Source: Nitrospira sp.
GTDB taxonomy: Bacteria > Nitrospirota > Nitrospiria > Nitrospirales > Nitrospiraceae
Length of the DNA stretch: 34,477 nt
Assembly (NCBI GenBank): GCA_005116815.1
Contig: SWDR01000013.1
Location: forward strand, 20,862-55,338
Direction of reading: 5' to 3'
Below the pieces are notes generated by a model. That model did no database searches and was not told the DNA's origin. It saw nothing but the letters and a program-made list of their open reading frames with translations. Below are positions 1 to 8,846 of this stretch, piece after piece. A program made the position numbers and the translations under genes. Numbering within the stretch: position 1 is the stretch's first letter; the number at the start of each line of letters is the position of its first letter.

Positions 1-1273
1 CTTCTAATTGGTGATGCATGCGATTGAATTCGTCGGCCAGATCCTGAATTTCATCGCCGGTCCGAATGTCGATGGGCTCCAGCAGCTCACCACGTCCGAT
101 CAATTGTGCAGCGGCCTGTAATCGGCGCACGGGTGTGACGATTCGATTGGCCGCCAGGTAGCCGAGCGATGCCATCAATCCGACAGAGACGAGACTGAAG
201 ACGGCCATCCAGGTGAGCAAGTGACGGATCGGGGCAAAGAGTTCGTCGGAGGCTTGCCACACGAAGCTGTGCCAGGAGCCTTTACTCAGATCGCCGTTGG
301 TGGCTCGGCTGGTTTCCGGCACCGGGGCGTATCCAATAATCGAGCGGGATTGTCCGCCATGGCCATCGCTCGGAGCACTGACCCAGCCAGGCTGAAGGGG
401 CGTGACGAGGGGAATGAGCTGTGCGTCGGAGAGCGAGACGCCGGTCGGCAGGATGGGACAGCTGATGACGATGCCGCGATGGTCGATCAGCATCACATGT
501 CCGGTTTTGCCGAAACGAATCGGCGCGATGGAGGGCGAGAAAAAGTCCTTGGCGTCGATCACGCGATGGATCACTCCGATCGCCCCATACCGGATGCGGT
601 CCATGATGGGAAGCGAGATGGTGATGACATAGGTCTGGGCTCGTTCGTCGAAGTGCACATCCTCAATGAAGAGTTGCCCGACCCCGTGATGGAAGGCGCC
701 GTTCCACCAGGCCGTGTCTTTGTTGGCAAAAGGAGGGATCGTGGTCAACGCGGTGACCAGGTTGCCCTCCATGTCGGTGACATACAACATCTTGGTGGCG
801 GATCGGACCACTTGCGGGATCAGTTGATCGGCTTCACTCTTGGCTCCCGAGAAGTATTCCTGAAGGAGGCCGGCCATAGTGCTTCCCGTGATGGCCTGGA
901 CGGCCAGGGGATCTTTTGACTCCCAGCCCTCCTTGCGCTTCTCCACCATGCGGCGGCGTTCATCATCGGTCATGTCCATGAGGGCATCGCGGCGTTGCTC
1001 CAGTTCACGGATAATCAACGGGTCAGCCGCAATCCGTGACGTCCGTGCTACTTCGTCCGATACCAACAGATCGATTTTCCTGGCCGACTCCTCAGCCAGG
1101 GCCTTGAAGCTTTCGCCGTTGACCGTCTGGATTTCGCGCGAGCCCTGCCAAAAGGCGAGGCCGAGGCCGACCATGAGGGGAACGACCCCCACCAGCAACA
1201 TGGAGAGAATCAGTTTGTGTTGGAGTCCCCATCTCGAGTCGGTGCGAGCTGGGGGGGCCGCGGGAGTCATCAT
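1..1273 (-). CDS. Cache-HAMP transmembrane sensor protein (partial, C-terminus outside window)
   Basis: The minus-strand reading frame is open from 1273 to the window edge, 424 codons. It has a short basic N-terminus, a membrane segment at about residues 18-41 (LILSMLLVGVVPLMVGL), a long extracytoplasmic part resembling a dCache domain (residues ~45-350, with motifs such as MLYVTDMEGNLVTAL, DTAWWNGAF and GKTGHVMLIDHRG), a second membrane segment near 360-382 and a HAMP linker (ANRIVTPVRRLQAAAQ then TGDEIQDLADEFNRM). The output domain lies beyond position 1, so kinase, cyclase or chemoreceptor cannot be decided. The start ATG at 1273 overlaps the TGA of the upstream kinase (ATGA, 1273-1270), implying translational coupling in a three-gene signalling operon; a second in-frame ATG follows at 1270. 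The membrane receptor probably senses a small ligand through its Cache domain. Confidence 0.85.
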   Translation of the reverse strand, partial: MMTPAAPPARTDSRWGLQHKLILSMLLVGVVPLMVGLGLAFWQGSREIQTVNGESFKALAEESARKIDLLVSDEVARTSRIAADPLIIRELEQRRDALMDMTDDERRRMVEKRKEGWESKDPLAVQAITGSTMAGLLQEYFSGAKSEADQLIPQVVRSATKMLYVTDMEGNLVTALTTIPPFANKDTAWWNGAFHHGVGQLFIEDVHFDERAQTYVITISLPIMDRIRYGAIGVIHRVIDAKDFFSPSIAPIRFGKTGHVMLIDHRGIVISCPILPTGVSLSDAQLIPLVTPLQPGWVSAPSDGHGGQSRSIIGYAPVPETSRATNGDLSKGSWHSFVWQASDELFAPIRHLLTWMAVFSLVSVGLMASLGYLAANRIVTPVRRLQAAAQLIGRGELLEPIDIRTGDEIQDLADEFNRMHHQLE

Positions 1274-2319
1274 GGACTTCCCTCCCCGGCCGGTTGGGCA
1301 TGGGGGAAGGTCAAGGTAAAGGTGCTCCCCTGATCGACCTTGCTCTCGACCGTGATCTGGCCATGCATTTTGCTGACGATGGTGTTGACATTATAGAGGC
1401 CCAGGCCCGTGCCTTTACCCGGGGCCTTCGTCGTGAAAAACGGCTCGAAGATCTCGGGGATTTTCTCCGGGGCGATGCCACAGCCTGTATCGGAGATTCG
1501 GATATCGACCTGTCCGCCGAGGACTCTGGTCTCGAGCGTCAATGTGCCGCCCGCTTGTTCCATCGCATGAACCGCATTCGTGATCAGGTTGACGAAGACA
1601 TGGAGGAGCTCATCCGGGTTCCCTTTGACTGCGGCGCCGGGCTGGTATTGTTTGAGCATCTCGATGTCGTGAAAACTCGATGCATACCGTGCGATCTTGA
1701 GGGCCTCGTCCAATTTGGCGTTGATCGATACCGATACGTCTTCATGCGGGGATGCGCGTCGTGAGTAGCGGGTGAGGTCCCGACAAATGGCACTCGTCCG
1801 TTTGACCGCTTCAATAATATCTAAGGCCTGTTCGTGGACAGCAGCCACGTCGCGTTCCTCCGCGAGGTTTTCCGCCAAGCCTAAAATGAGTTGCAGGGGG
1901 TTGTTGATATCATGCGCGATGCCTGCGGCGAATGAGCCGATTCCGGCAAGCTTCTCGGCTTGGAGGAGTTCGGCTTCGAGCTTGGACTCATGTTGAATCA
2001 GTTTCCAGAGCAGGCGGGAGGCCGATCCGCTCAGGATATCCGCGGTCGGAGGTTTATGGGCCTTCAGATAGGTCTCCATCTCCGGATTGCCGGTGACATC
2101 CATGATGAGCTGTACGCCGTGGTTGCCGATCAAGTCCGGCACATTGGTGGTCACGGGGATGTGGAGGGTCCGTGCGCGTTGCAGCCCTGGCGCAGCTGGA
2201 TCACGGTCTGTAATGCCGACGATCTCAATCGACGGGATTTGGTGCAGCAGATCTAACAGCGCACGGCCGCCGCGACCTGCCCCCAGAATGGCGACCTTAG
2301 TCGGGTCGGAATGTTCCAT
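1270..2319 (-). CDS. Histidine kinase with N-terminal Rossmann-like domain
   Basis: This 349-residue protein has no membrane segment. Residues ~7-100 look like a nucleotide-binding Rossmann fold ([17 protein letters not shown] with GAGRGG at 13-18, then [11 protein letters not shown] and MDVTGNPE), similar in pattern to the N-terminus of homoserine dehydrogenases or CoA/NAD-binding domains. A HisKA domain follows with H136 in [11 protein letters not shown], then a HATPase domain with N box ([11 protein letters not shown]), G1 (DTGCGI), F box (FEPFFTTK) and G2 (GKGTGLGLY). It probably autophosphorylates H136 and signals to the response regulator encoded just upstream. The N-terminal fold may make it respond to a dinucleotide or CoA-type ligand; that is inference. 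It is the middle gene of an operon and ends in a 4-bp ATGA overlap with the Cache-HAMP gene. Confidence 0.88.
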
Positions 2320-2355
2320 TCAGGCGGTCTCCCTATGGCAGAGTTGGAACTCTTG

Positions 2356-2385
2356 TGCCGAGGAGGGCAAGGCCTCTCCTCGGCA
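2356..2385 (-). other. Intercistronic hairpin between regulator and kinase genes
   Basis: A perfect 10-bp stem (TGCCGAGGAG at 2356-2365 against CTCCTCGGCA at 2376-2385) with a 10-nt loop lies between the response regulator stop and the kinase start. No run of T follows in the direction of transcription, so it is unlikely to be a full intrinsic terminator. It may stabilise the regulator mRNA 3' end or partly attenuate transcription so that regulator exceeds kinase. Confidence 0.6.
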
Positions 2386-2408
2386 TAGAGGGGGATGGAG
2401 GCTCATGA

Positions 2409-2843
2409 TTACAGCCGTGCAAGCTCCCGTTGCTCCATGGCTCGAGCGACGGCTGACCGCAGTTTCTCACCTTCGACCGGTTTGACGAGATAATCGACCA
2501 CGCCTTGCCGGAGGAAGGAGGTCGCCATATCGGTATCCGGGAAGCCGGTCAGCACGATGAGCGGGACATGCGGGTAGTTGCTCCGGAAGTAGGCGATGGC
2601 TTCGGCTCCGTTAACCTTTGGCATGCGGATATCGCAGATCATCACATCCAGCATGAGCCGGTTCTCACCGCTGTTGATAACTTCAATCGCTTTTTCACCG
2701 TTTTCGGCTTCTAGCACGGCGTAGCCTGCTTTCTGCAGCGTCATCTTGACGACTTTCCGAATATCCGGCTCATCGTCTACCACGAGCACCCGTCCGTTGC
2801 AGGCCTCTCCCCCGACAAAGAACCCAGAGTTGAAGTCACTCAT
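2409..2843 (-). CDS. CheY-like response regulator (single receiver domain)
   Basis: The product has 144 residues and is a single receiver domain: acidic pair D23-D24 (VLVVDDEPDIRK), phospho-acceptor D71 (MICDIRMPKVNG), T in LIVLTGFP and K in DYLVKPVEG. There is no output domain, so it likely relays phosphate or acts on a protein partner. The start at 2843 is chosen because a strong Shine-Dalgarno (AAGGAGG) lies 8 nt upstream; the frame stays open further upstream to 3170 but that stretch has no family similarity and contains the promoter. It is the first gene of an operon with the Rossmann-type histidine kinase and the Cache-HAMP receptor. A canonical sigma-54 promoter stands about 75 bp upstream, so expression should depend on RpoN and an enhancer-binding protein. 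Confidence 0.93.
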   Translation of the reverse strand: MSDFNSGFFVGGEACNGRVLVVDDEPDIRKVVKMTLQKAGYAVLEAENGEKAIEVINSGENRLMLDVMICDIRMPKVNGAEAIAYFRSNYPHVPLIVLTGFPDTDMATSFLRQGVVDYLVKPVEGEKLRSAVARAMEQRELARL

Positions 2844-2915
2844 GGCACCCTCCTTGGTTGGTAGTGAGATATGGTTTCCTGCTGGCTTCCTCACATGCTG
2901 TTGCACTACGTAAGT

Positions 2916-2932
2916 CGCAATGCGCGTGCCAG
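2916..2932 (-). promoter_or_regulatory. Sigma-54 (RpoN) promoter of the response-regulator operon
   Basis: On the minus strand the bases read CTGGCACGCGCATTGCG. This fits the sigma-54 consensus YTGGCACG-N4-TTGC, with GG (-24) and GC (-12) at the correct 10-nt spacing. Transcription would start near 2905, leaving a leader of about 60 nt before the ATG at 2843. No enhancer-binding site was identified. Confidence 0.75.
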
Positions 2933-3295
2933 CATGGCTGCGTAGAAAGGATTCTGGTTTCCCAGCAAATATGCGTTTTCTGGCACAGGCTGCACAGACA
3001 CATGGTTGATACCCACCAGCTTGTGCTGAAAACCACCACCAGTGAGACTTGAAGGTGACTTGAGCATTGCCGTTTCTGTTGTTCCCCGTGAGCGACGAAG
3101 AAGGTGAGCGGTGACGAAACGAGTTTGGTCCCCACGATGATGCGAGAGCGAAAGGCCTGTGGTGAGTCAATCGGATGAATCACAGGCGATGCGAGCCTGG
3201 ATGAGAAGGGATACAGGGCTCAATCGCATTCATGCTTTCGGCATAGGGCTTTCGGAGCGAGATGTCGCGATTAAGCCCTGTTCAGTGGCTTTGAA

Positions 3296-3325
3296 TTGCC
3301 TTTCAGTCTGGGGCTGGGGTATCCT
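3296..3325 (+). promoter_or_regulatory. Possible sigma-70 promoter of bolA
   Basis: TTGCCT (3296-3301) and TATCCT (3320-3325) are separated by 18 bp and lie 27 bp before the bolA start codon. Both hexamers are imperfect, so this is a weak prediction. Confidence 0.35.
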
Positions 3326-3351
3326 GACAACACAATGAAATTGGAGAGTCT

Positions 3352-3591
3352 ATGATCACGCCAGACGTGTTGACTGAGTATGTGCGCCAGACGATGCCGG
3401 ATGCTGCGGTGACGGTCTTGGACCGGACCGGTACGATGGATCATCTCAAAGTGGTGGTGATTTCAGCAGCCTTCGCGGGAAAGAACCTGCTGGACCGGCA
3501 CCGCATGATCTATCAAGCATTAGATGTTCCGATGAAGGACGGGCGGATTCATGCGCTCGAACTCACAGCCAAAACCACAGACGAAGCCTAG
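3352..3591 (+). CDS. bolA: BolA/IbaG family protein
   Basis: The 79-residue protein matches the small BolA family: an N-terminal helix (VLTEYVRQTMP), then DHLKVVVISAAFAGKNLLDRHRMIYQAL with the conserved H-R-x-I/V-Y pattern, and a C-terminal IHALELTAKT strand. BolA proteins bind [2Fe-2S] clusters together with CGFS monothiol glutaredoxins and act in iron sensing or cluster trafficking. The gene faces grxD, and the two stop codons overlap in a shared CTAG (3588-3591), a context that supports the partnership. GGAGAG 6 nt upstream serves as ribosome site. The palindromic repeat unit (CAGGATGCT) starts at the base after the TAG stop. Confidence 0.92.
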   Translation: MITPDVLTEYVRQTMPDAAVTVLDRTGTMDHLKVVVISAAFAGKNLLDRHRMIYQALDVPMKDGRIHALELTAKTTDEA

Positions 3592-3971
3592 CAGGATGCT
3601 GAAACAGTCCGCCAGACAGGAAACGCTGAACGATGAGTGATGAGCGATGAAACAGAAGTTGATTTTTTCAGCAGCGGCTCAATCTCGCCTTTGGCCGCCA
3701 TCGGGTCCAGCACGTCGGTGTCGCCGTAAAACTGCCCGTCGATGAACACCTTGGGGAGCGTCGGCCAGTTGGTCATTTTTGCGAGCGCTTCTCGCTTGCT
3801 CGGCTGAGAAAGGACATCGATCAGTTCAAACGGGTATCCGTACTTATCAAAGAACTGTATCGTCTCTCGCGTGAACCCGCACATGGGCATCTGCTTGGTG
3901 CCCTTGCCGTAGATCAAAATCTTGTGTGCGGCGACTTCTTTGTTAATTTCATCTTGAATGGAATCTGCCAT
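3588..3971 (-). CDS. grxD: Monothiol glutaredoxin (Grx4/GrxD type) with repeat-derived C-terminal tail
   Basis: Residues 1-103 match a monothiol glutaredoxin: KILIYGKGTKQMPMCGFT with the active cysteine C31 (CGFT in place of CGFS), TLPKVFIDG with the cis-proline loop, and YGDTDVLDPMAAKGEIEPLLKK at the end. The family delivers or holds a glutathione-coordinated [2Fe-2S] cluster and pairs with BolA, encoded convergently next door. ATG 3971 is chosen because it has GAGGAGG just upstream and starts with the usual MADSIQDEI. The last ~23 residues (TSVSSLITHRS..VSASC) are translated from a copy of the dispersed palindromic repeat and have no family counterpart, so the original stop seems lost and the repeat supplies tail and stop. 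The glutaredoxin fold itself is complete. Confidence 0.92.
   Translation of the reverse strand: MADSIQDEINKEVAAHKILIYGKGTKQMPMCGFTRETIQFFDKYGYPFELIDVLSQPSKREALAKMTNWPTLPKVFIDGQFYGDTDVLDPMAAKGEIEPLLKKSTSVSSLITHRSAFPVWRTVSASC
3592..3664. repeat. Dispersed repeat, one arm (copy 1)
   Basis: This 73-bp copy starts with CAGGATGCTGAAACAG immediately after the bolA stop and continues as AGGAAACGCTGAACGATGAG. It is the near-perfect inverted counterpart of 4149-4220 (one mismatch noticed), so the grxD region is bracketed by inverted copies. Its reverse strand forms the 3' end of the grxD reading frame. Confidence 0.85.
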
Positions 3972-4060
3972 GGCTCGGCCTCCTCGCAAGTTGCGGATAA
4001 ACTATGTTGGCACACGAAAATTCAACGGTTCTACATTTGGCACAACGGAAGAACACTACG

Positions 4061-4220
4061 CAGGATGCTCAAACAGTCTGTCCAGCAAGGCCGCAGCGAG
4101 TGAACAACTGTGAACTTTGAACGAAGAACAAGGAACGCTAAAGCGACGATCAACTTCTGTTTCATCGCTCATCACTCATCGTTCAGCGTTTCCTGTCTGG
4201 CGGCCTGTTTCAGCATCCTG
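4061..4220. repeat. Dispersed palindromic repeat (copy 2, complete)
   Basis: A 160-bp unit begins CAGGATGCTCAAACAGTC and ends with its imperfect inverse CTGTTTCAGCATCCTG. The inside holds short direct motifs of the TCATCGCTCATCACTCATCG kind. The right end touches the TAA of the minus-strand membrane protein gene with no base between. It has the look of a small non-autonomous element with inverted ends of about 25 bp; no coding capacity is seen. Confidence 0.85.
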
Positions 4221-4604
4221 TTAGGCAGGTTTCTTCGGCTCGTTGAACATAAAATACATAACGACTACTACGGTCGACCAAAACACCACCTGTTTGTGCC
4301 AGAAGAGGACTTCTCCATAGTGGAAGAAGATGGCTGCGAGCAGGAGGGAGGCGCCGATCAGGCTGTAGCGGAGAGTCATGTTTTCGACGACCGCATTCGC
4401 CCATACCGCGACCCCGCCGAAATAAATCAAGAGGGGAATGACGTCGATTTCGAATCCCCCGCTGATCGAGAGAAAGATGTCGAGAAAGCCGATGAAAATC
4501 AGGGCGGTGCCCACGATCATCCCGGCGACACGCATTTGATTGTCGCTCCCGGAGTCGTCCTCTGATTCTGGGGGCACCGGCTTGTTGGTTGGCTCTAGCT
4601 GCAT
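4221..4604 (-). CDS. Small four-helix membrane protein, function unknown
   Basis: The 127-residue product has an acidic, proline-rich N-terminal tail (~25 residues) and four hydrophobic segments at roughly 26-48, 53-73, 78-97 and 101-121, the last ending in MYFMFNEPKKPA. I do not recognise a family. GAGGAA lies about 10 nt before the ATG at 4604. The stop codon TAA is followed directly by the palindromic repeat at 4220. Downstream on the same strand, 249 bp away, is grxD; the repeat between them makes a shared transcript uncertain. Confidence 0.8.
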   Translation of the reverse strand: MQLEPTNKPVPPESEDDSGSDNQMRVAGMIVGTALIFIGFLDIFLSISGGFEIDVIPLLIYFGGVAVWANAVVENMTLRYSLIGASLLLAAIFFHYGEVLFWHKQVVFWSTVVVVMYFMFNEPKKPA

Positions 4605-4626
4605 GGTCAGATGGTTCCTCGCTATT

Positions 4627-4702
4627 CGTGAAACGTGAAACGTGAAATGTGAAACGTCAGAGTTCTAAGCGAACGTCGCTTCACGAGATACGCTTCACGA
4701 GT
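4627..4702. repeat. Tandem GTGAAACGT repeats and a dispersed 25-bp unit
   Basis: Four near copies of GTGAAACGT lie at 4628-4657. They are followed by CGCTTCACGAGATACGCTTC plus ACGAG (4677-4701), 25 bp that recur without mismatch at 32446-32470. Both sites are in the 3' flank of a minus-strand gene (dcd and sthA) and in the same orientation to it. Confidence 0.75.
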
Positions 4703-4715
4703 GTTGCGCATTCTG

Positions 4716-5867
4716 CTAGGCCTTGAAATGTTTGCTCAGGGTTAAGCCCTGGCGCTGATACGAAGACCCAAGCGCCGAGCCATAGAGCTGACCGGGGCGC
4801 GCGAGCATCCTGTCGTATACAACCTTGAAGAAGGTTTGTCCATCATGGATCAGGAAGGGGACGTCGTGGGGGCGGACTTCCAGCACGACTTGGGTGCCGT
4901 GCAACTCGCCTTGGCCGTACCCGAATCCAGGATCGAAGAATCCGGCGTAGTGGGTTCGCAACTCGCCGCAGGCTGCTTCGAAGGCGACCATCTCGGCCGC
5001 GTAGCCGGCCGGCACACGGATCCGTTCCTTCGACGCGAGAATGTAAAATTCTTCCGGCTCCAAGAGGAGGCTGTCCTGCCGGTGGCGGTAGAGGGGCTCC
5101 CAGAAATCGAGCGCCGCATAATGGCCGACCTTGGAGAGATCGATGACGTGGCTGTTCTTCTTCGCTCGATAGCCGATAATCGGCGAGGCGCTTCGGTCGT
5201 CCCCCTTCAGGTCGATGCGGAGAAACAGGCCGCGGTCCGTTCGGAAATCGCGGGTGGCCAGCGCCTGCTTCGTGGGGAGGTTGTGGTAGAGCAGGGGTTC
5301 CCGCTTGTGGAGCGTCTGCAGCGATCGGTCTGGCACGGTGGCGTCGCCGCGCACGAAGCGAATTTGATTGAGCGAGTACCCGGTCTTCACCTTGATCGTG
5401 AACGAGCGAGGGACGATCTCCAGATAGAGGGGGCCGGTATAGCCGGCTCGGATTTCATCGAATCCCGTGTTGAGATCCGTCACGACGCGGGTAAAGACGT
5501 CCAGCCGTCCGGTCGTGCTTTTGGGATTGGTTCGTGCCCGGATGGTCTTGGGCAAGGTTACCCGTTCCAGCAGCGGCACCAAATAGACATGGCCTTTTTC
5601 GAGGATCGCTCCTTCGGTCAGGTCCATCTCGTACATCACGAGATCGGACTGATAGAAGTCCAGGACGTTGAGCCGGCTTGTAATATCGGACAGTTCCGGC
5701 AAAAAGCTGCTGATCAATCGGTAGGCCTTGCGTCCGAGCCGCAGGTCGAGGCTGGCCGGCTGAATTTGGCGGTCTTCGATCGGTACGTCGGCTTGGATGG
5801 CCCCGCTTGCGATCAGTTGCTTGATCTGTTGGTAGGGCAAAATGCCTTGTGGGGTTCTGGTACTCAC
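4716..5867 (-). CDS. dcd: 2'-deoxycytidine 5'-triphosphate deaminase, two-domain type
   Basis: The 383-residue protein matches the long two-domain dCTP deaminase family (usual length about 370). It begins GILPYQQIKQLIASGAI and carries IQPASLDLRLG, which is typical of Dcd proteins. Two tandem dUTPase-like folds are visible: residues ~80-175 (ARTNPKSTTGRLDVFTRVV, YTGPLYLEIVP) and ~260-360 (YILASKERIRVPAGYAAEM, HYAGFFDPGFGYG, TQVVLEVR). It would convert dCTP to dUTP on the route to dTMP. The start is GTG at 5867, which overlaps the kamA stop as GTGA, so translation is probably coupled to kamA. The gene ends the minus-strand operon. The stop TAG is followed by CAGAATGCGCAAC, a degenerate form of the repeat end seen after other stop codons. 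Confidence 0.88.
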   Translation of the reverse strand: MSTRTPQGILPYQQIKQLIASGAIQADVPIEDRQIQPASLDLRLGRKAYRLISSFLPELSDITSRLNVLDFYQSDLVMYEMDLTEGAILEKGHVYLVPLLERVTLPKTIRARTNPKSTTGRLDVFTRVVTDLNTGFDEIRAGYTGPLYLEIVPRSFTIKVKTGYSLNQIRFVRGDATVPDRSLQTLHKREPLLYHNLPTKQALATRDFRTDRGLFLRIDLKGDDRSASPIIGYRAKKNSHVIDLSKVGHYAALDFWEPLYRHRQDSLLLEPEEFYILASKERIRVPAGYAAEMVAFEAACGELRTHYAGFFDPGFGYGQGELHGTQVVLEVRPHDVPFLIHDGQTFFKVVYDRMLARPGQLYGSALGSSYQRQGLTLSKHFKA

Positions 5868-6988
5868 AGGTCGTCGTGCTCTCCATTACTGCATGAGTTC
5901 AGTGAAGGCCCTGCGCTGACCATCGGCAGCTCGCGGGACGATCCCTGTTTCGGCTGAGGATAGTGGAAGGCCTTGCCCTCATAGTTTTTCAAGAGAACGC
6001 CCTCGGCATCCATGTGCACCATATAGTCGCCGGGAAGCAAGGGGATCTTGCCGCCGCCGCCCGGTGCATCGATCACGAAGTGCGGGACGCCCATTCCGCT
6101 GGTATGGCCCTGCAACGACTTGATGATATTCAGCCCCGTTTCGACCGTGGTGCGGAAGTGATTCGTGCCCTTGGTTAGATCGGCTTGATAGAGATAGTAG
6201 GGCTTGATGCGGGCGAGCAGGAGCTGATGCATCAAGCGCTTCATGATCTCAGGATCGTCGTTGACGCCTTTGAGCAGTACGGTCTGCGCCCCAAGGGGCA
6301 CGCCGGCGTCGGCTAACATCCCACAGGCCGCTTTGACGGCCGGGGTCAGTTCGTCCGGGTGATTGAAATGCAGGTTCATGTAGATGGGGTGATACTTCTT
6401 CACGATCGCGCAGAGTTCCGGGGTGATCCGTTCCGGCAACGTGCCGGGCACCCGCGATCCCAAGCGAACCAGTTCTAAATGTGGAATGGTGCGCAGGGCC
6501 TTGAGGATCCGCTCCAGTAAATGATCCGGCAGGAGCAACGGGTCGCCTCCGGAGAGGATGACATCGCGCACTTCGGTATGTTCCCGCAAGTAGGCGATGG
6601 CCTGGTCGAGTTCGCCCTTCTTGAGGAAGCCAGGTTTTCCGACCAGTCGTTTTCTCGTGCAGAACCGGCAATAGATCGGGCACTGATTCGTGACCATCAG
6701 CAGGACGCGATCCGGATAGCGGTGGACGAGGTGCGGGACCGGGCTCATGAGATCCTCTTCGAGCGGATCGTCTTCCGCCTCGAAGTCGTCCATTTCGGCG
6801 ATATCGGGAACCACCTGTTTCCAGATGGCGTCGCCCTTTGTCTTAATCGTGGCCATCACCGTGGGGGTAATGCGCATCGGATAGTCGCCCACGATGGCTT
6901 CGATTTCTTTCGCATCGACACCGAGCTGCGCTGCCAAGTCTTTGGGTTTCACGATGCTGTCGGCGAGTATGCGTCTCCAAGCTTCCAT
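5864..6988 (-). CDS. kamA: Lysine 2,3-aminomutase (radical SAM, PLP-dependent)
   Basis: The 374-residue protein has the radical-SAM cysteines C103, C107 and C110 (CPIYCRFCTRKR), the SAM-binding ILSGGDPLLL, and the PLP lysine K314 in DAPGGGGKIPLLP. D270 (QADLTKG.NHFRT) and D307 (VIDAPGG) correspond to the two aspartates that bind the lysine side chain in characterised lysine 2,3-aminomutases, which favours L-lysine to beta-lysine activity over the EpmB or glutamate-mutase branches. The start at 6988 has AAAGGAGA 6 nt upstream; the frame stays open upstream but overlaps the glutaredoxin gene. It sits 41 bp behind a glutaredoxin-like gene and overlaps dcd. No beta-lysine acetyltransferase (ablB) is next to it, so osmolyte synthesis is not supported here. 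The C-terminal ~30 residues are poorly conserved. Confidence 0.9.
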   Translation of the reverse strand: MEAWRRILADSIVKPKDLAAQLGVDAKEIEAIVGDYPMRITPTVMATIKTKGDAIWKQVVPDIAEMDDFEAEDDPLEEDLMSPVPHLVHRYPDRVLLMVTNQCPIYCRFCTRKRLVGKPGFLKKGELDQAIAYLREHTEVRDVILSGGDPLLLPDHLLERILKALRTIPHLELVRLGSRVPGTLPERITPELCAIVKKYHPIYMNLHFNHPDELTPAVKAACGMLADAGVPLGAQTVLLKGVNDDPEIMKRLMHQLLLARIKPYYLYQADLTKGTNHFRTTVETGLNIIKSLQGHTSGMGVPHFVIDAPGGGGKIPLLPGDYMVHMDAEGVLLKNYEGKAFHYPQPKQGSSRELPMVSAGPSLNSCSNGEHDDL

Positions 6989-7383: not shown

Positions 7384-8846
7384 TTCTTCATCGCTGCGCA
7401 GGGCACCATGACGGCGTCCTTCATTCCGTGGATCACTTTCTTGTCTGATGAGCAGACCGTTGCCAGGATACCAGCCAGCTCGATGGTTTCGCCACTCACG
7501 AAATAATAGGGGGAGAGCCTGGCGCGACCGGACATCCGGTTCATGTCGCCGCTGATGGGATCGAAGTACTCGAGGTCGTACAGGCGGCCCTTATGAAACT
7601 CCTGCAGGATATAGGGCGTTTTGGGAAAGGAGGCCAGGGCTTTGTCGATGGCAGCCGTCCATTCGGGTTGTGGCATATCGTGGCCAACCGATACCCCTCG
7701 GCTGCCCCAAGCGAGTTCGGAGAACCCCGATGGCTTGATCACGAAGTGCCGTTCTTTTTGGGTGGCCGTGGCCAGATCGCGCCAGTTCATCACGGCCCGT
7801 CCGCCCATCGTCAAGCCAGGAATCGTGGCGGATGGAGGGATCGGCGCAGGATCGAGAATCCACGTACGAGGCATGATCGCCGTCAAGTGGAGAAAGACTT
7901 CTTGCCCCAACGCTTGCTCCCAGAAAGGTCGTAGGGCCGGGTGATGGAGCAGGGCAAAGGCGAGTTTCTCTTCCAACGCCGGCTTATAGGGAGGCGTGAC
8001 GGCGACCCGGTCCTTCTTGACCGCATATTGAACGAGTTCTGATTTGGGTATATTGAGCAGGTCGAATAACTCATAGAAACGATAGATCAAGGCGATCGGC
8101 TGATCGATTCCCTCGTGGGTGATCCGGAGGCCTTCTTCCGTGAATCGAACCTGTCGAGGCTCCACGCAATAGGCGTCGACTCCGATCGCTCGCAGCCGGG
8201 CCGTGAGCCACGTCATTTCCGGCCGGTAGTCTTTGGCTTCTTCCGACAGCAGAATCGCGATGCAGCCGGTATGTGGGGCGAGCTGGGCCTTCAACATGGC
8301 CGCAAATCCTTGCACCATCCCGTCGGGACCTCCCACGAGCGACAGCCCATCGGTCTGCGCATCGGCATAGAGCGACGAGAGGCAGGCCGTCATGCCGATT
8401 CCGCCTGGGACTGAGTCGAGTTCGGTGATGACCATCCCATCCTGGGTGGGGATGACGTCCGGCCGGATGACGGCGGGAAGGTGATCGCGAAATCGCTTCA
8501 TCCGGCTGTACGTGATCAGCCCTTCCGGCTTGCCTTGGTCGAGGTATCCCGCGACCCAAGCCGGTTGGAGGCCTCGCACACTGTCGAGGTAAAGGCGGTT
8601 CAGCGCCCGATAAAACGAGAGGAGCTGCGGGCCAAGCCGGTGAAAAAAATCTAATTGCTCTTGGGTGATGGTGAGTGGCGTGGTGGCGATGCGCCAGGTC
8701 GTCGTCGCGGCAACCGCTCCAGGAACCGGTTCTTGTCCTGGCAGAGACGGAAAGAGGCCAGCGTGGCTCAGTTGGTCACGGATGATCGCGCAGCGATGAA
8801 GGAGGTCGGAGGTAGCCAAATCAGACAGAGGGGATGTCCATGTCAA
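7365..8846 (-). CDS. ATP-grasp-like conserved protein, function unknown
   Basis: The product has 493 residues and is probably cytoplasmic. Stretches such as VIRPDVIPTQDGMVITELDSVPGGIGMTACLSSLY (about 130-165) and HFVIKPSGFSELAWGSRGVSVG followed by YILQEFHKGRLYDLEYFD (about 370-430) resemble the divided ATP-grasp fold of glutathionylspermidine-synthase-like ligases, but I cannot name a substrate. The start is inferred as TTG at 8846 (no ATG is in frame near the N-terminus), with AAAGG about 10 nt upstream. It is the first gene of an operon with the glutaredoxin-like gene, kamA and dcd, so an amine or lysine-related ligation is possible; this is inference. The final residues SPEC come from an intergenic repeat. 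Confidence 0.75.
   Translation of the reverse strand: MTWTSPLSDLATSDLLHRCAIIRDQLSHAGLFPSLPGQEPVPGAVAATTTWRIATTPLTITQEQLDFFHRLGPQLLSFYRALNRLYLDSVRGLQPAWVAGYLDQGKPEGLITYSRMKRFRDHLPAVIRPDVIPTQDGMVITELDSVPGGIGMTACLSSLYADAQTDGLSLVGGPDGMVQGFAAMLKAQLAPHTGCIAILLSEEAKDYRPEMTWLTARLRAIGVDAYCVEPRQVRFTEEGLRITHEGIDQPIALIYRFYELFDLLNIPKSELVQYAVKKDRVAVTPPYKPALEEKLAFALLHHPALRPFWEQALGQEVFLHLTAIMPRTWILDPAPIPPSATIPGLTMGGRAVMNWRDLATATQKERHFVIKPSGFSELAWGSRGVSVGHDMPQPEWTAAIDKALASFPKTPYILQEFHKGRLYDLEYFDPISGDMNRMSGRARLSPYYFVSGETIELAGILATVCSSDKKVIHGMKDAVMVPCAAMKNLSPEC

Follow-up and report, generated by a model that had tools for sequence, protein, structure and literature searches.

A probable enhancer-dependent sigma-54 promoter in front of a four-gene sensor operon of Nitrospira

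The stretch of DNA analysed here (the window, 34,477 nt) corresponds to contig C5:20862-55338 of a Nitrospira sp. genome (G000) with a size of 1.97 Mb and a completeness of 71.6%. It contains the beginning of a predicted four-gene sensor operon, which codes for a receiver-only response regulator (P0001), a soluble histidine kinase (P0002), a membrane histidine kinase and a c-haem Cache protein. The genes and their presumptive control elements are listed in the table. Beyond the control region follow a divergently oriented bolA gene (3352, plus) and a glutaredoxin gene (3588-3971, minus). The latter is flanked by a 78-nt inverted repeat (3586-3663 and 4149-4226 of the window), the arms of which are 97% complementary and separated by 485 nt. 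The near arm and the end of the glutaredoxin ORF overlap. The repeat looks like a pair of mobile or repeat elements.

Table. Operon genes and predicted control elements, in window coordinates unless a locus is named
Feature	Position	Strand	Remarks
Receiver-only (CheY-like) response regulator P0001, 144 aa	2409..2843	minus	PF00072 E 2.2e-28; first gene
Soluble histidine kinase P0002, 349 aa	1270..2319	minus	N-terminal Rossmann-like domain with GAGRGG, HisKA, HATPase_c
Membrane histidine kinase (dCache, HAMP, HATPase_c)	2..1273	minus	cut by window edge; full length 670 aa
Fourth gene, Tll0287/DUF3365 c-haem Cache protein, CVSCH	L129:11581-12225		wholly outside window; PF11845 E 6.5e-17, above cut-off
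Ribosome-binding site AAGGAGG	2849..2855	minus	before regulator ATG
Sigma-54 -24/-12 promoter element CTGGCACGCGCATTGCG	2916..2932	minus	-24 GG 2930-2929, -12 GC 2918-2917
Paired upstream activating element	3001..3042	minus	predicted sigma-54 enhancer-binding protein site
Unit 1 TGGTGGTTTTCAGCAC	3038-3023	minus	
Unit 2 TGGTGGGTATCAACCA	3018-3003	minus	
Enhancer/promoter relic	L260 (G035 C3), near 7713-7913	minus	same leader, lipoprotein-like gene

The ATG of the membrane kinase overlaps the stop codon of the preceding gene (ATGA). Among the 59 loci of L002-L075 with sufficient DNA on both sides (among the matches listed), 55 had the four genes in the same order, the exceptions being L061, L062, L065 and L073. 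The protein encoded by the fourth gene has a signal peptide by eye and is predicted to be exported. Of 62 loci with a match to the fourth gene (among the matches listed), 60 had its CxxCH motif; the other two were cut by contig ends. A phmmer search of the c-haem protein against solved structures yielded nothing at E 0.1.

The preliminary description of this DNA had called P0002 a Rossmann-type kinase, which is fair. The glycines of the GxGxGG motif, i.e. G13, G15, G17 and G18, as well as D38 were invariant in 15 sequences, and for residues 7-96 alternating strands and helices are predicted with a mean pLDDT of 75.3. Pfam matches of this domain stayed below the curated cut-offs, and the weak matches in the PDB were diaminopimelate dehydrogenase, acetaldehyde dehydrogenase and Rex. 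In a structure search with P0002 the best 50 matches listed were to the kinase part or to whole signalling proteins and hence uninformative on the Rossmann-like domain. A preference for NAD usually goes with an acidic residue that follows the second strand, and hence the domain may read NAD(H).

A sigma-54 promoter with every consensus element had been proposed on the strand of the operon, 73 bp before the regulator gene. Strand and distance hold: the 17-mer CTGGCACGCGCATTGCG lies on the minus strand with 73 bp between its TTGC end and the ATG at 2843. It matches 11 of the 11 fixed positions of TGGCACG-N4-TTGC. A comparison with YTGGCACGNNNNTTGCW shows one mismatch, the final W being a G, and in this respect the wording was slightly generous. 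Transcription would be expected to start near 2905.

Such a match may also be a chance resemblance, with another promoter of the sigma-70 type nearby driving the operon. By arithmetic with equal base frequencies, exact copies of TGGCACG-N4-TTGC are expected about 0.016 times in the window on both strands and about 0.9 times in a genome of 1.97 Mb; CTGGCACGCGCATTGCG is the sole exact copy in G000. Sites with at most one mismatch numbered 32, the window's site included, versus 30 for the reversed control pattern. Thus, the motif alone is unremarkable genome-wide, and its position and conservation have to carry the case. On the other hand, a simple consensus scan of window 1-4000 detected no sigma-70-like site, while 1.9 were expected from shuffles. 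The 32 near-consensus sites were distributed as 25 forward and 7 reverse compared to 13 and 17 for the control, though contig orientation should be arbitrary. Among the 30 of these sites that were fetched, 7 were located outside any ORF of at least 150 aa. The window's site is not counted there because an ORF from TTG 3170 overruns it. This extended ORF was considered as a coding sequence across the promoter and rejected, as relatives differ by many insertions and deletions upstream, with the ATG and GGAGG being kept. GGAGG occurred at most 20 nt from the ATG in 47 of 47 Nitrospira-like leaders and AAGGAGG in 38 of them (among the matches listed). No Rfam family was detected in window 1-6000.

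Conservation was assessed in orthologous loci, as the preliminary description had suggested. A search with P0002 yielded at least 80 loci from named genomes, 66 of which had a full orthologous regulator and an upstream region and were usable: 46 Nitrospira-like loci and 20 from deeper Nitrospirales. The two sets were split by locus number, which roughly follows the rank of P0002 similarity, plus L072. Eight loci were dropped because the regulator was not full or not orthologous (L003, L014, L041, L042, L056, L062, L064 and L068) and L076-L081 were dropped as other kinases. A site was scored if GG-N10-GC with at least 8 of 11 positions of the textbook consensus lay 50-95 bp before the ATG, a distance range that was set after a first look at the data. 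By raw count, 46 of the 47 Nitrospira-like upstream regions (the window and 46 loci, among the matches listed) passed, compared to 1.00 on average in 20 dinucleotide shuffles; the loci are mutually related, and these counts are not independent events. Other position bins or bins on the opposite strand had 0-4 passing sequences each. Sites with at least 10 of 11 positions were found in 24 of 47 sequences versus 0.05 in shuffles, and perfect sites in 12 of 47 versus 0.

Inspection of the sites corrected the tally to 45 of 47 in place, one displaced (L008) and one without the -24 GG (L046). The in-range match of L008 is due to chance and lies within an insertion; the true site scores 9 of 11 and is located 262 bp from the ATG. 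The insert of about 190 bp (L008:3222-3413) has perfect inverted repeats of 18 nt in a MITE-like manner and sits between the promoter and the regulator gene. A chance resemblance does not account for position, orientation and dinucleotides being kept in this way, and together with the fixed enhancer spacing described below this makes an accidental match very improbable. We conclude that the sigma-54 promoter is almost certainly real, as far as comparison of sequences can tell.

The deeper Nitrospirales carry the same operon, yet 18 of the 20 loci had no such promoter (among the matches listed); those passing were L055 with 8 of 11 and L073 with 10 of 11 positions. Element-free relatives of this kind would also be expected if the match in the window were accidental. 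As these relatives keep the operon without the promoter, the system does not in itself require sigma-54 control. Judged by the loci compared, the predicted promoter belongs to the Nitrospira lineage and not to the operon as such.

A second conserved block was first seen when the 250-bp regions preceding the 47 starts were aligned. This paired upstream element was absent from the preliminary description and was found here. It consists of two units, the starts of which are 20 bp apart in the window. In an alignment of 35 sequences (A1) the units had the forms TGGTGG-N-TTTCA..CA and TGGTGGAT..CAACCA. From these 35 of the 47 Nitrospira-like sequences we built a sequence-only model of 46 positions (R1). 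R1 matched 45 of the 47 sequences with E 0.003 or better (among the matches listed), including 10 of the 12 sequences left out of the model; L031 was matched over the second unit only. L047 and L049 had no R1 match. Both have the promoter, and a candidate enhancer about 12 bp further out can be read off the alignment. None of the 20 deeper Nitrospirales loci matched R1 up to E 1. The palindrome TGGTGGN7CCACCA was tried as a finder of enhancer copies, was dominated by background and was replaced by R1: with two mismatches it occurred 116 times per strand in G000 versus 70 for the control, and with one mismatch 11-29 times per strand in six genomes versus 6-17.

The distance between the two elements was determined in 43 sequences, i.e. 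the window and 42 loci; L046 gave no site, and L031, L047 and L049 were not entered. From R1 position 1 to the -24 TGG it was 113 bp in 16 sequences, 114 bp in 15, 115 bp in 11 and 111 bp in one, with a standard deviation of 0.9. Thus, 42 of 43 sequences fell within 113-115 bp (loci among the matches listed). The distance from the 3' end of the promoter to the ATG was 55-86 bp, e.g. 72 bp in L004, except for the 262 bp of L008. The insert in L008 displaces the promoter from the gene, and the enhancer-promoter spacing is still 113 bp. Pairwise identities were calculated for 903 pairs, leaving out L008, L046, L047 and L049 and using the best slide of at most 2 bases for every segment. In the 812 pairs with a spacer identity below 0.5 mean identity was 0.55 for the enhancer and 0.69 for the promoter, as against 0.37 for the spacer and 0.39 for the leader. 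Because enhancer and promoter stay similar in these pairs, their conservation is not a mere consequence of relatedness. Read from sequence and spacing, the two elements have the layout of a sigma-54 promoter and an enhancer placed in helical phase with it.

The conserved elements might serve the divergent bolA gene instead of the sensor operon. bolA is located upstream not only in the window but in 43 of the 46 Nitrospira-like loci (among the matches listed). Yet the promoter reads toward the regulator, and both elements are found close to the regulator at varying distances from bolA; in L018, for example, the start of bolA is at 2640 and that of the enhancer at 3264. We regard this alternative as very improbable. 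The upstream elements may have an additional role in the control of bolA.

R1 was then searched in 32 genomes of the genus, G000 included, which partially overlap with the named loci and are not a fully independent set. Exactly one match at E 0.001 or better was obtained in 28 of the 32 genomes. The four genomes without a match (G007, G019, G028 and G029) also had no P0001 match at E 1e-30; three of them are fragmented and 81-89% complete, and absence there is weak evidence. In the same P0001 search G031 had a match and G035 had none. A second convincing copy of R1 was found in none of seven genomes, the best extra matches being partial with E 0.018 and worse, so no regulon could be drawn. The reduced genome G035 (1.8 Mb, 99% complete) gave a weak R1 match of E 1.6e-5 in the absence of a P0001 match. 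Here a different gene, lipoprotein-like by eye, follows directly on the leader GGAGGGTGCCATG, and AC stands in place of the -12 GC. This is a single case, but one that conforms to a -12 element maintained for the sensor operon alone.

The preliminary description had also pointed to the genes for RpoN and enhancer-binding proteins (bEBPs) as a check on the promoter, and both are present in G000. RpoN was identified by PF04552 with E 7.2e-56 in an open frame of 507 aa. Seventeen matches to PF00158 came down to 14 distinct bEBP ORFs, including broken or truncated ones. No bEBP motif was detected in 35-36 kb around the operon in G001, G002 and G006; in G001 and G002 the nearest PF00158 bEBP is tens of kb away. 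A presence/absence filter of genomes with the operon (G031, G000, G005 and G001) versus those without a P0001 match (G007 and G035) left 7 of the 14 bEBP orthologue groups of G031 as candidates, and a comparison with deeper genomes (30 loci, 10 per genome) gave no single candidate. In one of these 7 groups, that of G000 L113, the receiver was the one nearest to P0001 in G031, G000 and G005 (36-39% identity) and ranked third in G001, the fourth genome with the operon that was compared. This is a weak lead to the L113 group as a candidate for the cognate bEBP.

Some bEBP genes were unusual in themselves. L124 (G000 C5:69362-72694) has a disrupted AAA+ domain that leads into a fragment of a kinase ATPase. 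Its orthologue in G031 (L230) is full length, and L124 is either a deletion fusion or an assembly chimaera. Otherwise intact-looking bEBPs had variants of the GAFTGA loop, i.e. GSFTDA (G031 L233 and L236), GAFTDA (G031 L252 and G000 L121) and GAFTSA (G000 L118).

If the activator were the canonical NtrC, the operon would respond to nitrogen limitation. RpoN is present, and the P0001 receiver scores with NtrX and NtrC receivers, though among many others in a generic manner. NtrC binds to boxes of the consensus TGCACC-N5-GGTGCA and normally has many targets. However, no such box with up to three mismatches was found between the regulator and bolA. The 22 box matches in the window are within the range of shuffles, and the nearest ones at 2785 and 3419 are inside the regulator gene and inside bolA, respectively. 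Moreover, the enhancer occurs once per genome, which does not conform to the many targets of NtrC. We consider NtrC as the activator highly improbable.

Well-known sigma-54 promoters activated by NtrC-type bEBPs are those of glnA, pspA and zraP. The Nitrospira site resembles them by the -24 GG and -12 GC with N10 between and by paired units located some 80-100 bp ahead of the -24 element. It also shares their dependence on helical phase, here implied by the constant spacing. In contrast to them, it is unmatched to a named bEBP, has no adjacent bEBP gene and has one full-length target per genome.

AtoS and ZraS are kinases which feed bEBPs, and the Zra system is an autoregulated sigma-54 operon. 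Both kinases of the Nitrospira operon score best with the model of AtoS, followed by ZraS in third and second place, respectively; these scores are far below the cut-offs and arise from the kinase core. In contrast to ZraS-ZraR and AtoS-AtoC, the Nitrospira operon codes for a receiver-only regulator in place of a bEBP, for two kinases that differ in their input and for a c-haem Cache protein.

The fourth gene connects the operon to the sCache_heme/Tll0287 family (DUF3365, PF11845), to which it belongs by its Pfam match and the CxxCH motif. According to PMC12889525, PF11845 is a Cache domain with covalently bound c-haem and is enriched in Nitrospirota among others; members fused to signalling domains are reported to have properties of an NO sensor, and stand-alone members redox-like ones. 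The Nitrospira protein differs in that it stands alone and yet is encoded with two kinases and a receiver; consequently either the redox or the NO reading may apply. A link to nitrogen, stress or envelope regulation had been envisaged for this operon and found no support here. From its parts we infer that redox or NO sensing fits better.

Taken together, conservation in orthologues and the presence of rpoN and bEBP genes back the initial proposal of a sigma-54 promoter for the sensor operon. We consider it very probable that this is a genuine enhancer-dependent promoter driving all four genes with an unlinked bEBP as the activator. In this mechanism RpoN-RNA polymerase would bind to the -24/-12 element as an inactive closed complex. 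A bEBP encoded elsewhere would occupy the two TGGTGG-type units and, by DNA looping and with ATP, open the complex. The predicted transcript is a four-gene mRNA for the receiver-only regulator, the Rossmann-type soluble kinase, the Cache/HAMP membrane kinase and the exported c-haem Cache protein.

Two further steps are more speculative. Because AtoS is the best-scoring model for the kinase cores, ZraS scores high as well, and these are kinases of bEBPs, we propose that the bEBP acting on this operon may in turn be phosphorylated by the two operon kinases, which would complete a feedback loop. The signal is probably the redox state or nitric oxide; the c-haem protein would sense it on the outside and the Rossmann (NAD-like) domain on the inside. 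Extended to the whole circuit, the operon may be a self-amplifying respiratory sensor of nitrifiers. Here the exported c-haem Cache protein (redox/NO) and the NAD(H)-reading Rossmann kinase would act through two AtoS/ZraS-like kinases on an unlinked bEBP with the operon as its only full-length target. The receiver-only regulator would be a phosphate sink or relay, and the Nitrospira lineage would have acquired sigma-54 control for an operon already present in older Nitrospirales. As a whole this model is tentative and rather unlikely. If it were true, the circuit would let Nitrospira match the dose of its own sensor to nitrite/NO or the state of electron flow.

Nitrospira are major nitrite oxidisers and include the comammox bacteria. 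To our knowledge gene regulation in this genus is little charted. Judged by titles and abstracts, no description of this promoter was found in the papers retrieved on sigma-54 and two-component systems in Nitrospira. The nearest passage, in an excerpt of PMC5767232, deals with sigma-54 for FleQ and flagella. In the excerpts concerned, PMC3162934 is a general comparison of sigma-54 that names Nitrospira for taxonomy, and PMC12516955 has sigma-54 in a reference only. The present data add a promoter-enhancer pair tied to a redox/NO-type sensor operon that is widely kept in the order. With a spacing constant to within 1-2 bp among Nitrospira-like genomes, the pair is a ready DNA bait for the activator. 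The presence of a predicted two-part switch before the sensor genes, kept across Nitrospira-type nitrifiers, suggests that these bacteria raise the sensor only on demand.
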